A DNA stretch of 64,000 nucleotides from Pseudonocardiales bacterium. Its GTDB lineage: Bacteria; Actinomycetota; Actinomycetes; Mycobacteriales; Pseudonocardiaceae. A model generated the notes under the pieces. That model had not been told where the DNA came from and did no database searches. It saw nothing but the letters and a program-made list of their open reading frames with translations. Within the stretch, counting starts at the first letter, position 1. Each line of letters begins with the position of its first letter. Positions 56,394 through 64,000 of the stretch are shown one piece after another. The DNA lies in contig JAFAWY010000064.1 of the NCBI GenBank assembly GCA_019241525.1, positions 1 through 64,000 on the forward strand, given 5' to 3'. Position numbers and translations under genes: made by a program.

Positions 56394-57053
56394 ATGAATC
56401 CACGACCACAGGTCATCCATCTCGGCGAGCTGTCGGCTCGCCTGCGCCAGGCGGCCCGGCATTTGTTCGAGGTCGTGCTTGCCCCGCTGGGCTTGTTCTG
56501 GCTGATGCTGACCCTCACCAACCTCACCGGCGGGTTGATCGCCGCGTTGAGTTGGGCTCTCGGCGTGCTGCTTGGCCGCGTGCTGACCCGCACGCCGATC
56601 CCCGCCGTGCTGTGGCTCACCACTGGACTGCTGGTGATCCGCACCGTCATCGGTTACACCACCGGCAGCGTGTTCTTGTACTTCCTGCAACCCACCTTGC
56701 AGAACTTCGTGATCGCGTTCGTGCTGCTGGCCACCGTGGGGCTGCGTCGCCCGCTGATTGCGCGGCTTGCCGACGACTTCTGCGCTTTCCCGGCCGCCTT
56801 GACGAGCAACCAGCGGGTCCAGCGGTTCTTCCGGCGGGTGTCGTTGTTGTGGGCGATGGTGTTCCTGACCAACGGTATGACGACGCTGTGGGTGCTCGCT
56901 CGGGCCACACTCGGCAACTTCCTCATGGTCACCACCGCCGGATCGTTCTCCCTGGTGACAATCGCGGCGGCGGTCTCCCTACTGTGGTTCCGGCGTGAGC
57001 TGCGCTTCGAAGGCATCCGCCTGCGTTTCGGCACGGCAACCGCCGCCGTCTGA
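56394..57053 (+). CDS. multi-pass membrane protein, VC0807/DUF3159-like
   Basis: APLGLFWLMLTLTNLTGGLIAALSWALGVLLGRVLTRTPIPAVLWLTTGLLVIRTVIGYTTGSVFLYFLQPTL. Confidence 0.75.
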   Translation: MNPRPQVIHLGELSARLRQAARHLFEVVLAPLGLFWLMLTLTNLTGGLIAALSWALGVLLGRVLTRTPIPAVLWLTTGLLVIRTVIGYTTGSVFLYFLQPTLQNFVIAFVLLATVGLRRPLIARLADDFCAFPAALTSNQRVQRFFRRVSLLWAMVFLTNGMTTLWVLARATLGNFLMVTTAGSFSLVTIAAAVSLLWFRRELRFEGIRLRFGTATAAV

Positions 57054-57075: not shown

Positions 57076-57810
57076 TCAGCCGAAGCGCTGTGCGAAGCGG
57101 TAAAACAGCTGGGGTGTCGCACCCCGGACCCGGGCGGCGACGCTGAGCCAGCGCGGCACGAAAACCTCCGCCTCCCCCTGCTCCAGCGCACCTACCAGGG
57201 CGGACGCGACGTCGGCGGCGTCAATCTGGCGGGGGAAATGCCGGTCGTAGGGCAGCCCGCGGTGGTCGAAGAACGGAGTGCGCACCGCACCGGGCAGTAC
57301 CGTGGTGACGCTGATCCCCTCGCCTGCCACCTCAAGACGGACGCTGTCGGCGAAGGCCCGCAGCCCGGCCTTTGTCGCGGCATACACCGATTCCCCGCCG
57401 ACGCCGACCGCCGCAATGGATGACACGTACACCAGCTGACCGCGCCCGCGGGCCCGCATTCCGGGCAGCGCAGCCCGGGTCAACCGCATGGGTGCGGTCA
57501 GGTTCAGCGCGACCAGCCGGTCGATGTCCGGCTCTCCCATGGTGGCCAGATCTCCGGCCCAGCCGACGCCTGCCGAGTTCACCAGGAGATCAACATCAGC
57601 AGTCTCGTCCGCTGCCCGGGCAAGGCCTTCGGGGGTGCAGAGGTCGGCCACGACAGCGCGCGCACCGGTCCGGCTTGCCACCGCATCAAGCCGATCGAAG
57701 TCCCGGCCGAGCACCACCAGCCGGCAACCCGCCGCGGCCAGCTTGTCCGCGACGGCTGCGCCGATGCCAGACGATCCGCCGGTGATCAGCGCCTGGCAGG
57801 GGGGCCTCAT
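57076..57810 (-). CDS. SDR family oxidoreductase
   Basis: ALITGGSSGIGAAVADKLAAAG, NSAGVGWAG, YAATKAGLRAFADSVRLEV. Confidence 0.95.
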   Translation of the reverse strand: MRPPCQALITGGSSGIGAAVADKLAAAGCRLVVLGRDFDRLDAVASRTGARAVVADLCTPEGLARAADETADVDLLVNSAGVGWAGDLATMGEPDIDRLVALNLTAPMRLTRAALPGMRARGRGQLVYVSSIAAVGVGGESVYAATKAGLRAFADSVRLEVAGEGISVTTVLPGAVRTPFFDHRGLPYDRHFPRQIDAADVASALVGALEQGEAEVFVPRWLSVAARVRGATPQLFYRFAQRFG

Positions 57811-58739
57811 CCCCAGGCGACCCGGCGCGATCCGCGCTGCGGTGCCCGCTCAATCTCGCGACGCAGCTGCGTGCCGCGGTGGGCCAGCAGCGCGACACTG
57901 CCGATGATGATCAGCGCTGCGATCAGCTCACCGGCGAGCACAGCGGGCGAGGTGTTCACTTCCTCTCCCAGCCAGCACACCCCGATCGCCACCCCGACCA
58001 GCGGGTCCACGATCGTGATGATGGCCAGCGCCGGGGCGATCAGGGTGCCCTGCTGGAAGGTGTTCTGGCTGAGCAGGAACCCCAGCGGACCGACCACGCA
58101 GACCACGTACAGCACCGGGTGGCTGAAGATTTCCGCGAAACCACCGGATCGCAACTGCCCGGTGACCACCTTCATCAGCCCAGCGGTCAGGCCGTAAAAC
58201 ACCCCGGTGGCCGCCGCGAGCGCGGCAACGCGCACGGACCCCTCGTACCGGCCGGCCACCGCCAGGCACACCACCACGGTGATGCCCAGCACGAGGGCCA
58301 GCGGCAGCAATCCCCAGCCGTCTTGCTCGAGTTCGGTGGAACCACCGGTGGGTTGGGCCAACACCAGGAACACGGACAGCCCGGCCACCGCTCCCAGCGA
58401 GCCCAGGATGACCAGGCGGTCCACCCGGCGACGGGCCAGCAATGCCGAGAACACCGCACCGAAGAGCACACCGGTCACCAGCAACGGCTGCACCAGCACC
58501 AGCGGGCCATAGGCCAGCGCGACGAGCTGCAGGCTCAGACCCACGATGACGGTGCCGATCCCCAACACCCATCCTGGATGGCGGATCAGGTCCAGCAGCA
58601 GCCGCGGGTTGAGGGTGCCGGTGGTCGGTACCTCTTTGGTGGCGCGCTGCTGGATCGCACTGGCCAGCCCGAAGCTCGCTGCTCCGGCCACCGCGGCCGG
58701 CACCGCGACGAAGAACGTTGTCGACGCCGACTGCGACAC
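57807..58739 (-). CDS. DMT/EamA-like transporter
   Basis: Polytopic; SFGLASAIQQRATKEVPTTGTLNPRLLLDLIRHPGWVLGIGTVIVGLSLQLVALAYGPLVLVQPLLVTGVLFGAVFSALL. Confidence 0.9.
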   Translation of the reverse strand: MSQSASTTFFVAVPAAVAGAASFGLASAIQQRATKEVPTTGTLNPRLLLDLIRHPGWVLGIGTVIVGLSLQLVALAYGPLVLVQPLLVTGVLFGAVFSALLARRRVDRLVILGSLGAVAGLSVFLVLAQPTGGSTELEQDGWGLLPLALVLGITVVVCLAVAGRYEGSVRVAALAAATGVFYGLTAGLMKVVTGQLRSGGFAEIFSHPVLYVVCVVGPLGFLLSQNTFQQGTLIAPALAIITIVDPLVGVAIGVCWLGEEVNTSPAVLAGELIAALIIIGSVALLAHRGTQLRREIERAPQRGSRRVAWG

Positions 58740-58742
58740 GAC

Positions 58743-61265
58743 TCACTCCCGCGCTGTCGTGGGCGCCCCGCGGGCGCCCCGTGGATGCGTTGTCAGGTCA
58801 TCGAAAGCCTGACGTAGCGCGTTAGCGAACTGGTCCGCGGCGCGGACCAGCCCGGTGTCCGTGGTGACCCCGACACCGATCATGTCTCCCCAGGCCAAGA
58901 ACCCCACCGCCAGCCCGACGCCGTCTGCCAGTGGGAGCACCGGGAACACCGATTCCACCCGGACCCCCCACATACAGTGTGCCTTCCGCGGCCCGGGCAA
59001 CACCGATGCGATGAGGGTGAAAAATCGGCGCCCGTACATGGCGCGGACCAGTCGCGCGTGCAGCGGGGCGGGCAGCCGGCCTAGTGCGCGGACCACCGCT
59101 TGGGCCGCCGCTGGCTGATCGGCACGCTCCCGTCTAGCCAGTTCGCGGGCCGCCGCAACCATCCGCCAGGCCTGCGGCATCGGCCCGACCGGGAGGTCCA
59201 GTGCCACTGCCGCGGTGTGGTTGCCCTGGTAAAGCCGGTCTCTGGAGCTAGCCCGGCGCAGTGCCTGGGTCGTCTGTGGCACCATCACCCGTAGCCGATC
59301 GTGCACCGCAGTGCCGGCCGGATCGATCCGGTGCAGCGCTTCGCCGATCAGAGTCAGCAGCAGGGCAGTGGTGCCCACGCCATGATCGCGTGCGGTGGAG
59401 CGCACTGCGGCCGCGGGCAGCGCTGCCATCGCGTACTCCCGTCCCGCCGTGCTCGGCCCCACCGGCCCACCCTCTGGTGCGCGCCCCGCGGTGGCCAGAC
59501 TCATCAGCCCGCGAGCCACCCGCCCGGCGCGGGCGGCCCGGCTACGCCAGTCTGCACTGCGCGCCCTACGTGGTGACTCGACCGGCGCTGCGGCAGGCTT
59601 CTCGCTGTCGGACAGCAGCGCGATGAGGGTGGCGGTGACGGCCAGCCCGTCACCCAAGCTGTGATGCATCTTCGCCATCACCGCGGTGCGCCCGGCGTCG
59701 ACGTCCTGAACCAGCTGCAACTGCCAGGGTGGCCGGTCCATCGGCACCGGGGTGGAGAAGAACTCCCGCACCGCCGCGGTGAAAGACATCCCGGCGGGGG
59801 AGCTGCTCGCGCCGACCGTCCGCGCCCGCAGGTGATCATGCGGGTCGAAGTCGTCAGCGAGGAGCCAGCGCGGCTGCCGGTGCGGGCGCAGGTCCAGCCG
59901 CCGGCGCAGCATCGGCAACGCCGGTACCCGCTCGGCGAAGCGCGTGGCGAGGTTCGCCAGGGGTTGCGTGAGCACACCATCGAGTAGCAGCACCGCGCCG
60001 ACCTGCTGGGCCACGGTGGAGGTGGCGGCGTGGGCGAAGAACGCGTCCGGTGCCGCGAGGGGCCGGGCACCGTGGTGGCGGGGCAATTCCGGCAGCGCCG
60101 CGATCTCGGCATCCAGGTCAAGTGCGCCGATATGGGTCAGCGCGCGTTGCTGCGCCGCGACCAGCTGCGCTGGCTGAGCGATCAGCATCCGTAGCGCGCT
60201 GGTCAGCTCCGCGGGCCCTTCGCACAGCGTTGCCAGCCCCGCCGCGGCCATCAGCGCGGCGTTGGCCTTTCCGTGCCCGGCGATCGGTTCGAACATCAAC
60301 ACCTCCCGGCCGCACGCAACCGCCTCCAGCGCGGTCGCACCGCCGGCATTGGTCACCACGACGTCGGCAGCTGACGTCAGAGCCGGCATCTGATCCGTCC
60401 AACCCAGCGGCATCAGGCGCTGCGGCGGTTCGTGGCGGCTGGTCAACCGAACGCGCAGGGCCTCGTTGCGGCCGCAAGCCACCACCACGCAGACCTCAGG
60501 ACCCGCAGCCAGCGCGGCATCGACCGCCCGTTCCACCGAGCCGAACCCAAGAGACCCGCAGGAGATCAGCACGATCAGCGCGTCGCCGGGCAACCCGCAG
60601 CGCCGCCTGGCGGTGTGGGGATCGGTCGGCGCGAACGCGGAAACCACCGGGGGCGCGCCGACGGCACCTCGAGCATCTGGCCGGGCCTGGTACATCGCGC
60701 GCAGGCTCGCCTCGCTGGCGACATAATGCAGGTCAATCTCTGGGTAGACCCAGAACGGGTGCGGCGCGAAATCCGAGATGATCGCCGCGGCGGGCACGTT
60801 CAGACCGCCGTGGCGCCGCATCCAGTCCAGGCCCCCGGTGCCCAGCGGGTAGGTCGACACCACCAGGTCGGGCTTGTACTCGGCGATGATCGGGACGAGC
60901 CGGACGCCGCTCCACACCCCGGTGAACCGGCAGGACGCCGTGGCGAACCACGGGTAGCGCCACAGCGCGCGGTAGAAGAAGTCGTACAGCCACGGGGTGG
61001 TGTCCACGTTCACCCGGTAGATCCAGCGGAAACCTGGGCCGACCCAGGAGCCCATCCGGTCCAGGGTGTCCACCCGCCGGATCTGGCAGTCCGGCCACAA
61101 CCAGCGGGCTCGCTCCTCCACCGCTCGGGCGGTGGCGTTGTGGCCTTCGCCGATGTTGGCGCTGATCACCAGCAACCGTTGCGGTGGCACGCCCGAAGAC
61201 CTGCTTGCAGGGTCGAGCATCGAACCCGAAGACCTGCTTGCAGGGTCGAGCATCGACTCGCTCAT
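58743..61265 (-). CDS. fusion: MGDG-synthase/UgtP-like glycosyltransferase (N-term) + WS/DGAT-like O-acyltransferase (C-term)
   Basis: N-term PQRLLVISANIGEGHNATARAVEERARWLWPDCQIRRVD and DVVVTNAGGATALEAVACGREVLMFEPIAGHGKANA; C-term KMHHSLGDGLAVTATLIALLSD (HHxxxDG) and DRLRVMVPQTTQ...YQGNHTAAVALDLPVG. Confidence 0.88.
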   Translation of the reverse strand: MSESMLDPASRSSGSMLDPASRSSGVPPQRLLVISANIGEGHNATARAVEERARWLWPDCQIRRVDTLDRMGSWVGPGFRWIYRVNVDTTPWLYDFFYRALWRYPWFATASCRFTGVWSGVRLVPIIAEYKPDLVVSTYPLGTGGLDWMRRHGGLNVPAAAIISDFAPHPFWVYPEIDLHYVASEASLRAMYQARPDARGAVGAPPVVSAFAPTDPHTARRRCGLPGDALIVLISCGSLGFGSVERAVDAALAAGPEVCVVVACGRNEALRVRLTSRHEPPQRLMPLGWTDQMPALTSAADVVVTNAGGATALEAVACGREVLMFEPIAGHGKANAALMAAAGLATLCEGPAELTSALRMLIAQPAQLVAAQQRALTHIGALDLDAEIAALPELPRHHGARPLAAPDAFFAHAATSTVAQQVGAVLLLDGVLTQPLANLATRFAERVPALPMLRRRLDLRPHRQPRWLLADDFDPHDHLRARTVGASSSPAGMSFTAAVREFFSTPVPMDRPPWQLQLVQDVDAGRTAVMAKMHHSLGDGLAVTATLIALLSDSEKPAAAPVESPRRARSADWRSRAARAGRVARGLMSLATAGRAPEGGPVGPSTAGREYAMAALPAAAVRSTARDHGVGTTALLLTLIGEALHRIDPAGTAVHDRLRVMVPQTTQALRRASSRDRLYQGNHTAAVALDLPVGPMPQAWRMVAAARELARRERADQPAAAQAVVRALGRLPAPLHARLVRAMYGRRFFTLIASVLPGPRKAHCMWGVRVESVFPVLPLADGVGLAVGFLAWGDMIGVGVTTDTGLVRAADQFANALRQAFDDLTTHPRGARGAPTTARE
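61192..61256. repeat. two tandem copies of a 33-bp direct repeat in the fusion gene 5' end
   Basis: cccgaagacctgcttgcagggtcgagcatcga x2; encodes SMLDPASRSSG twice. Confidence 0.92.
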
Positions 61266-62518
61266 CGGGGTTGCGCTAACGGGTCGGTTTCGGTGACTGC
61301 GGGCCCCCAGGCCAGCGCGAGCAGCAGCGCGGCGCGCGTTGCCGGATCGTCCAGTGCGGGGCCGAACAGCTCACGCAACTGATCTAACCGGTAGCGCACA
61401 GTCTGTGGATGTACGTGCAGTTCGTCAGCCACTGCCTTGCGGTTGCCCATGTTCATCAGCCATGACTTGAGCGTCTCGCAGAGACGGTCGCGGGTGCCTT
61501 CACGCAGCGACGCGAGCGGGGCCAGGTACTGCTGGCGCAGCGCGGCCAGCAGCCGGTCGTCGCGGTGCACCAGCATCGCGTCGAGGTGCTCGTCGACGAA
61601 CAGTGGATCGTCGGGCAGCAGGTGCTTGAGGCGCAACGCGTGCTCGGCCAGGCCGATGCTGGCCGGTAGCCGGTCCAGTGGCACGGTGACACCGACCACA
61701 GCTCCCGAACCGCGCAGCGCCGTGGCCAGCCGCTTGCGCCGCCCGGGACCCTCCGGGTCGGGCACGATGGTCACCAGCATCTTTGGCCGGCGCAGCTGCA
61801 GGCAGGACTCATCCAAGCGGTCCAGCAGCACCCGTCCCACCTCGTTGTCTGGATTGATCAGCACTACCGCGGCGTGGCGGGGCAACGTCCATCCCGCGCG
61901 TGCCGCGGCGATCCGCAGGGCGGCGGTGTCGCAGCGGTCCGACAGCAACAGTTCGGCCAGCTCCAGGCGTTGCTGTTCGTGCGCGTGTTCTGCGCCGGCC
62001 TGGGCCCGCTCGTAACCGCGCAACGACGACGCCGACAGCTGCTCGACGGCAGTGAAGATCACTGCAGCCAACCCCGCGATGGTTTCGACTGGTACACCCA
62101 GGTGCAGCGCGGTGTCGGAGACATGGCGCCATGCCACCGCAGCGCCAGTCCGGTAGGCGGCCAGCAGGTGCGTCACGTCCTGCTGCTGTTCGTAGTGGAT
62201 ACGGCCGATTTCTTCGAAGATGGCCTGTTCCACCCCGGATGCCAGCTGGGGCGCGATCGTTGACGGATCGCGCTGGGCTAAGCCGACCAGCCTGGCGATA
62301 AAGCCTTCCGACGCGGTAAGGACCTCGGCGAAATCCTCGGTGAGAAAGGCCGCGTAGTCGGGGCTTTGCTCGGCCAGCAGCTCCCGGACCTCAGCCAGAA
62401 TGATCGGCAGGCGGGCTACAATCTCCGGCACCAGGTCGTCGAGCTCGATAGGGCGTCCTCCTTCAGCCGCGTGCACTGACCGGCCTCCCCCTCTGCATCG
62501 TCGTGCCAGGCCCCGCAT
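61262..62518 (-). CDS. PucR/CdaR-type helix-turn-helix regulator
   Basis: C-terminal LCETLKSWLMNMGNRKAVADELHVHPQTVRYRLDQLRELFGPALDDPATRAALLLAL (HTH_30). Confidence 0.9.
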   Translation of the reverse strand: MRGLARRCRGGGRSVHAAEGGRPIELDDLVPEIVARLPIILAEVRELLAEQSPDYAAFLTEDFAEVLTASEGFIARLVGLAQRDPSTIAPQLASGVEQAIFEEIGRIHYEQQQDVTHLLAAYRTGAAVAWRHVSDTALHLGVPVETIAGLAAVIFTAVEQLSASSLRGYERAQAGAEHAHEQQRLELAELLLSDRCDTAALRIAAARAGWTLPRHAAVVLINPDNEVGRVLLDRLDESCLQLRRPKMLVTIVPDPEGPGRRKRLATALRGSGAVVGVTVPLDRLPASIGLAEHALRLKHLLPDDPLFVDEHLDAMLVHRDDRLLAALRQQYLAPLASLREGTRDRLCETLKSWLMNMGNRKAVADELHVHPQTVRYRLDQLRELFGPALDDPATRAALLLALAWGPAVTETDPLAQPR

Positions 62519-62595
62519 ACCCCAATCACACTCAGCTGATGCTTACTCGAATGTGACAATTCTAGGGGTGAAGAACTGTCCCGTCTGACGCAGAA

Positions 62596-63567
62596 ATGTC
62601 GGCTAAGCGACCAGAAGATGTCGTCATGGCGGCGATCTCAGATGGGCCAGTGGCGCCGCAGTACCCGCCCGAGCAGGTGCTGGAGCATAAGCGGCGCGCG
62701 GAGAACTTTCCGGTGGCACTGCGTCTGCTGCCCCGCACGCTACGCGCCGACCTGATCGCGGTGTACGGCGTGGTCCGGGTTATCGACGACCTTGGGGATT
62801 GCGCTCCTGGTGATCGGACCGCGCTGCTCGAGGCGTTCCGGGCAGACCTGGCATCGGTGTGGGAGACGGGCCGGCCGCAACACCCGGTGCTGCAGCAACT
62901 GGTGCCCACGGTGGCGGCGCGTGGGCTGGACCGGGAACCTTTTGACCGGGTGGTGCGGGCCAACCTGCTCGACCAGCGGGTGCACCGGTATGCCACCTAC
63001 AGTCAGCTCCGGGACTACTGCACGCTGTCGGCCGACCCCATCGGCCGGATCGTGCTGGCCCTGTTCGGCGTGGGCGATCCCGTCGCAATCGAGCTGTCCG
63101 ACCGGGTCTGCACCGCCTTGCAGCTGATCGAGCACTGGCAAGACATCGCCGAGGATCGTCGGGCCGGCCGGGTGTACCTGCCGCAGGAAGATCTCGCCGC
63201 TTACCGGGTCGTCGAAGCTGACCTCGACGCCTTGCCGGGTGAGGGGGTGTCCTCCCCGGCGTTGCGGGCACTGATGGCCTTCGAGATCACCCGTGCCGCA
63301 GAGCTGCTGGACTCGGGGGCGCCGTTGGTCAGGATGCTGCACGGGTGGGCGCGGCTGGCCGTCGCCGGGTACGTGGCCGGCGGCCGTGCCGCCGTCGATG
63401 CGCTGCGTCGCTCCGTCTCTGGCCGTGCCGCCGACATCCTGACCGGCCCACCACGTCCCCGTCGCCGCGACGTCCTGCGTCACCTGTTGGGGGCTCTGCA
63501 CGAGCCGCCAACCCGGCGTGGCGCGGTCTCTGACGCACACCAACCCGCAAGCGGGGAGGTCCAGTGA
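62596..63567 (+). CDS. hpnC: squalene synthase HpnC (hydroxysqualene synthase-type)
   Basis: QVLEHKRRAENFPVALRLLPRTLRADLIAVYGVVRVIDDLGD; IEHWQDIAEDRRAGRVYLPQEDL. Confidence 0.93.
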   Translation: MSAKRPEDVVMAAISDGPVAPQYPPEQVLEHKRRAENFPVALRLLPRTLRADLIAVYGVVRVIDDLGDCAPGDRTALLEAFRADLASVWETGRPQHPVLQQLVPTVAARGLDREPFDRVVRANLLDQRVHRYATYSQLRDYCTLSADPIGRIVLALFGVGDPVAIELSDRVCTALQLIEHWQDIAEDRRAGRVYLPQEDLAAYRVVEADLDALPGEGVSSPALRALMAFEITRAAELLDSGAPLVRMLHGWARLAVAGYVAGGRAAVDALRRSVSGRAADILTGPPRPRRRDVLRHLLGALHEPPTRRGAVSDAHQPASGEVQ

Positions 63568-63568
63568 G

Positions 63569-64000
63569 ATGACCAGTGTTGCGATCAGTCTGGACCAGGC
63601 GTTCGATCGGTGTGAGTCGATCACGCGGACGGAGGCGCGGAATTTCTACTACGGCATCCGGCTGCTGCGCCCGCGCAAGCGGGCCGCGCTGTGCGCGGTG
63701 TACGCGCTAGCCCGGCGGATCGACGACGTCGGAGATGGTGACCTGCCTCGGGCGGACAAACTCGTCGCGTTGGGCCAGCTGCGCGCCGAGATCGCGGCTC
63801 TGCGGGTTTCCGGCAGCCATTCCGGGGCTGACCCGGTATTCACCGCGATCGCGGACCTGGCCCAGCGCCTGCCCCTGCCGCTGGGTGCCTTCGAGGAGCT
63901 GGTCGACGGCGTGGAAATGGACGTGCGGGGGCGGCGCTACGCCAGCTTCGACGAACTGGTCCAGTACTGCCGGTGCGTCGCCGGAGCGGTCGGGCGGCTG
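63569..64000 (+). CDS. hpnD: presqualene diphosphate synthase HpnD, N-terminal part (truncated by window)
   Basis: CESITRTEARNFYYGIRLLRPRKRAALCAVYALARRIDDVGD...EELVDGVEMDVRGRRYASFDELVQYCRCVAGAVGRL. Confidence 0.92.
   Translation, partial: MTSVAISLDQAFDRCESITRTEARNFYYGIRLLRPRKRAALCAVYALARRIDDVGDGDLPRADKLVALGQLRAEIAALRVSGSHSGADPVFTAIADLAQRLPLPLGAFEELVDGVEMDVRGRRYASFDELVQYCRCVAGAVGRL

Follow-up and report, generated by a model that had tools for sequence, protein, structure and literature searches.

The window, by which we mean the whole 64,000-nucleotide stretch of contig JAFAWY010000064.1 from a Pseudonocardiales bacterium, carries four minus-strand genes and, divergent from them, the beginning of a hopanoid cluster. 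The features are the following:

56394 to 57053, plus strand: VC0807-family (DUF3159-like) membrane protein, convergent with the SDR gene (NF041646, 73 bits, above cut-off)
57076 to 57810, minus strand: classical SDR (adh_short) with TGGSSGIG and YxxxK motifs
57807 to 58739, minus strand: DMT/EamA-like membrane protein with a GTG start (NF038012, 119.5 bits, above cut-off)
58743 to 61265, minus strand: glycosyltransferase (GT)-WS/DGAT (WSD) fusion of 840 amino acids (ORF list; four domains in a single frame)
61262 to 62518, minus strand: PucR-family regulator (ORF list; Pfam PF13556 (HTH_30), 73 bits)
62543 to 62559, strand not applicable: putative operator/promoter element TTACTC-N5-TGACAA in the pucR/hpnC spacer, read by eye
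62596 to 63567, plus strand: hpnC, start of the hopanoid cluster (TIGR03464, 265 bits, above cut-off)
63569 to 64000, plus strand: 5' part of hpnD, from which the cluster runs on past the window (own contig 62000-80000, L043)

The earlier note had read the four minus-strand genes as a translationally coupled operon next to divergent hopanoid-type genes, and the ORF list bears out all four reading frames at the positions it gave. Read directly, the junctions are as it described them: the PucR gene ends in a 4-nt overlap with the ATG of the fusion (61262-61265), the transporter begins at a GTG (58739) that is separated by 3 nt from the fusion stop (58743), and the SDR gene opens with an ATG that shares another 4 nt with the transporter stop (57807-57810). 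Fusion/transporter overlaps of 4 nt were also found at Saccharopolyspora, Actinopolyspora and Intrasporangium loci, and because the relatives show the same tightness, the close spacing is not a matter of chance. The divergent neighbours are indeed hpnC and hpnD. Past the window, the contig continues with hpnE, a polyprenyl synthase gene, shc, an hpnG-ispH fusion, hpnH and dxs, and the operon is thus divergent from an hpnC-D-E-polyprenyl synthase-shc-hpnG/ispH-hpnH-dxs cluster. In this cluster shc, hpnH and the squalene-forming hpnCDE genes all score above cut-off (TIGR01507, 748 bits; TIGR03470, 491; TIGR03467, 443; TIGR03464, 265), and TIGR03465 only just passes (278.7 bits against a cut-off of 278.6). 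The HpnG-like phosphorylase domain and IspH form one ORF here (L043 6852-8312, about 68851-70311 of the contig), whereas HpnG is an ORF of about 200 amino acids in several relatives. The core genes and their order are those of the Streptomyces hopanoid cluster (hpnC-D-E-ggpps-shc-hpnG-hpnH-ispG-dxs-hpnO). However, the Streptomyces clusters examined are without the GT-WSD fusion, the DMT gene and the SDR gene, and have the aminotransferase HpnO in their place.

The glycosyltransferase-WS/DGAT fusion proposed from the letters alone is confirmed by its domains (Pfam MGDG_synth, Glyco_tran_28_C, WS_DGAT_cat and WS_DGAT_C in the one 840-residue ORF), and the active-site motifs of both halves are intact. 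The N-terminal half (about residues 28-380) is a UgtP/MGDG-type glycosyltransferase, with 55 bits for MGDG_synth and 32 bits for the GT28 C-terminal domain against gathering cut-offs of 25 and 22. The C-terminal half (about 403-826) is a WS/DGAT O-acyltransferase with HHxxxDG at 534-540, and it stays under the cut-off of the curated model TIGR02946 (177 against 310 bits). The GT core residues and HHxxxDG are invariant in an alignment of 12 fusions. By sequence, the GT half matches the processive DAG glucosyltransferase (diglucosyl-DAG synthase) and MGD1, with 9wde and 4wyi as best PDB relatives; it shares the MGDG_synth plus GT28 C-terminal architecture with UgtP/MGDG synthases (GT28) but differs from them in being fused to an acyltransferase, in being linked to hopanoid genes and in carrying PIAGHGxAN where 9wde has PVPGQEKEN. 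The predicted structure of the fusion (pLDDT 76) matches the WS/DGAT acyltransferases 6chj and 7nxg, which share its fold and HHxxxDG motif, whereas the WSD of the window is GT-fused. A perfect 33-bp tandem duplication (61192-61256), coding SMLDPASRSSG twice, lies at the 5' end of the fusion gene, upstream of its conserved domain. The genome holds a second UgtP-like GT separate from the operon (C83, 14263-15240). In the relative G009, such a second GT (L068 5710-8967) adjoins a DMT pair downstream of hpnH-dxs and may belong to a parallel system for hopanoids or glycolipids. A plasmid search with the fusion as query found none.

As for the transporter, which had been called EamA-like, the DMT family NF038012 is its best assignment and that part of the description stands, while EamA itself falls under the Pfam cut-off. 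Among the mapped relatives the DMT gene sits between fusion and SDR at nearly all loci; Saccharopolyspora rectivirgula has none at this position, and in one genome (G021, L051) it lies on the opposite side of the fusion. The protein is a candidate flippase or exporter. A second, diverged DMT gene (NF038012; 52167-53030) lies a few kb away in the window, outside the conserved unit. The VC0807-family gene that faces the operon belongs to the conserved neighbourhood and was seen in 20 loci.

The earlier note had also asked whether the genes keep company and order in relatives. A pattern search, run on a single genome for each species, returned full fusions from Saccharopolyspora, Actinopolyspora, Intrasporangium and one Pseudonocardiales MAG, and the proteins of these loci and of 18 further ones were mapped. 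Fusion, DMT and SDR genes were found together at loci of many genera, nearly always in that order, with hopanoid genes alongside and a VC0807-family gene usually facing them. The four-gene order holds less widely, the leading PucR gene being restricted to the genus of the window and to one further locus (L007); at another (L055) a PucR gene is close by without tight coupling. Several other families also have a PucR gene divergent from hpnC, and the pucR/hpnC spacers of other families contain TTGTAC-N5-TGAYAA-like elements, picked by eye and with no estimate of chance occurrence. The element in the 77-bp spacer of the window resembles these and is a possible PucR operator.

Within the family (121 genomes), the fusion was found in 40 genomes and HpnH in 47; 39 have both, eight have HpnH alone, and the single genome with the fusion alone (G411) is a 93%-complete assembly. 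All 16 fusion-bearing genera of the family have hpnH, and Fisher's test gives p = 1.4e-22 for genomes and 1e-10 for genera, although these values are optimistic given shared ancestry. Where both genes are on the same contig (36 genomes), they are at most 17 kb apart in 35, at most 3 kb apart in 29, and 124 kb apart in one. The linkage to hpn genes survives changes of order, the fusion being divergent from hpnC here and facing hpnH elsewhere, and it extends to the distant Intrasporangium and to another family (f47), the spread outside the family being drawn from the pattern search and individual mapped loci. The eight hpnH-positive genomes without the fusion come from two genera, and we looked at one genome of each: in G033 a WSD and an SDR gene adjoin hpnH, and in G035 PucR, WSD, VC0807 and SDR genes lie near the cluster with a GT (57% identical) and a DMT gene elsewhere. 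In a further family (f12), the cluster has a GT, two DMTs and the SDR without a nearby WSD. Because the same parts occur apart at hopanoid loci, the fusion looks like a joining of parts. Taken together, the co-occurrence with hpnH and the position beside hopanoid genes across many genera lead us to regard the operon as a hopanoid unit, and it almost certainly belongs to the hopanoid pathway.

No member of the operon is more constant than the SDR. Its TGxxxGxG motif and the Ser, Tyr and Lys of its active site are invariant in the alignment, a C-terminal signature (RRGxPYxRxFPR...PRWL...RRFG) is conserved, and its predicted structure (pLDDT 92) is nearest in fold to bulky-ketone SDRs and to 17-beta-HSD13 (HSD17B13), which would fit a bulky lipid substrate but is no proof of one. 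In 61 relatives, all SDR matches of at least 143 bits but one are in hpnH-positive genomes; the exception is an SDR fragment from an assembly that is 74% complete and in which hpnH was not detected, and otherwise the best match in an hpnH-negative genome reaches 119 bits. The gene adjoins hpnH in other families (f26, f29, f45, f47 and the genome G226) and lies directly upstream of hpnC in G092. A tree is compatible with one clean hopanoid-SDR clade but is no proof of it, a single-step split from the sampled paralogues appearing in only 52% of bootstrap trees. Among 60 hpnH-positive genomes, 41 have the SDR only, 10 HpnO only, seven both and two neither, so that one or the other is present in 58; the two with neither (G004 and G140) are fragmented assemblies. 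A strict mutual exclusion is ruled out by the seven genomes with both, and in three genomes (G072, G105 and G070) the two genes are adjacent. We take family f30 to be Frankia-like and f31 to be Streptomyces-like, in line with their cluster layout. HpnO is present in 10 of 10 Streptomyces-like genomes and the SDR is missing from nine of them (in the other it is 243 kb away from hpnH), and the pattern of SDR absence comes mostly from this one genus-level group. The co-occurrence is phylogenetically uneven. Frankia makes bacteriohopanetetrol (BHT). Streptomyces coelicolor has been reported to make aminobacteriohopanetriol (PMC8537080), and the enzyme that forms BHT has been stated as not established (PMC12583986). 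As far as gene content goes, the distribution of SDR and HpnO would fit a BHT reductase that is present in BHT-making producers of C35 hopanoids and dispensable where HpnO is the sole branch.

A likeness to other bacteria is also apparent. In the proteobacterial hpnH-hpnA-hpnB arrangement (and in HpnI-K-J), an SDR-superfamily enzyme and a GT likewise come directly after hpnH. However, HpnA is of the extended SDR type (TIGR03466), while HpnB belongs to another GT family (TIGR03469); the fusion matches neither, being hit by four NCBIfam models only, with neither HpnB nor HpnI among them, and HpnA does not appear among the best hits of the window's SDR. HpnA and HpnB hold the place after hpnH in the single betaproteobacterial cluster that we looked at (Mycetohabitans, L111 12001-15275), and for this reason an SDR of the type found here would not be the universal BHT enzyme. 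The Mycetohabitans order parallels the actinobacterial hpnH-SDR-GT order. By analogy, this suggests HpnA as a candidate for the missing BHT step in Proteobacteria.

Hopanoid synthesis proceeds from squalene, formed by HpnC, HpnD and HpnE, to hopene, formed by Shc; HpnH then attaches a deoxyadenosyl group, from which HpnG strips the adenine, giving ribosylhopane. Our main reading, to which we give a probability of about 0.57, is that the operon is a tailoring arm of this pathway. The SDR would use NAD(P)H to reduce the ring-opened aldehyde form of ribosylhopane to BHT, the GT half of the fusion would glycosylate a side-chain hydroxyl with a nucleotide sugar as donor, and the WS/DGAT half would use acyl-CoA to place a fatty acyl group on the hopanoid or on the added sugar; the DMT protein would flip or export the product and, in this genus, PucR would control both the operon and the divergent hpn operon. 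The membership in a hopanoid locus, the co-occurrence and the intact catalytic motifs are observed, whereas we infer each reaction, its substrate and the order of steps, and for the exact reactions of these enzymes we put the odds only slightly above even. Either half of the fusion might instead work on some other lipid that is produced together with hopanoids. An acylated hopanoid glycoside is a plausible product of the fusion, because glycosylated and acylated hopanoids are known from other bacteria (PMC8537080). The earlier note had foreseen an acyl-glycolipid, wax or terpenoid lipid pathway, and we retain its idea of a dedicated lipid pathway that includes a transporter and a redox step, the terpenoid being a hopanoid; a route to diacylglycerol-based lipids or waxes is less probable. 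More tentatively, and with somewhat less than an even chance, the SDR could be the actinobacterial BHT-forming reductase and the fusion the source of undescribed acylated glycosyl-hopanoids that are moved by the DMT protein, all under a hopanoid-specific PucR.

An SDR that is linked to hopanoids could also oxidise, reduce or epimerise an intermediate further along the pathway, at the sugar or at one of the side-chain hydroxyls for instance, with BHT coming from another enzyme. SDR chemistry is versatile, the closest folds act on ketones and the proteobacterial cluster has its own extended SDR after hpnH, all of which would suit such a role. Nevertheless, clusters with the SDR beside hpnH and no nearby GT-WSD exist (L070, L083, L086 and L088), so the SDR appears independent of later steps, and it complements HpnO, itself a user of ribosylhopane; we consider a later-acting SDR unlikely, though by some way the strongest of the alternatives.

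It is less probable still that the fusion makes acylated glyco-glycerolipids and is kept by the hopanoid genes since both lipids serve one membrane. Its nearest characterised GT relatives, diglucosyl-DAG synthase and MGDG synthase, use diacylglycerol and its nearest characterised WSD relatives are wax/DAG acyltransferases, but the similarity to them is low, the fusion tracks hpnH in 39 of its 40 genomes, and the separate UgtP-like GT of the genome could serve the glycerolipids. That the neighbourhood reflects descent only, with unrelated lipid genes lying beside the hpn cluster in one lineage, draws on the facts that one family supplies most loci and that gene order is heritable; we find this very improbable, as the linkage outlasts changes of orientation and of cluster side, is found in other lineages (Intrasporangium, f5, f12 and f47) and in unfused forms, and as presence and absence go together.

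Our search for a description of the operon (hopanoids with a wax ester synthase, with PucR, or with a GT, an acyltransferase and an SDR) found none in a literature in which subscription journals were thinly covered; within that scope the operon is a previously undescribed variant of the hopanoid cluster, its novelty not being proven. In bacteria, hopanoids are the chief equivalents of sterols, and fossil hopanoids are used to read Earth's history. Gram-positive bacteria lack an outer membrane that HpnN could serve, and the DMT protein would be a candidate hopanoid transporter for them. The fusion predicts new polar hopanoids in Pseudonocardiaceae, which screens for plain BHT may miss. Finally, with an SDR that tracks hpnH and complements HpnO, the question of the BHT-forming enzyme (PMC12583986) is now testable.
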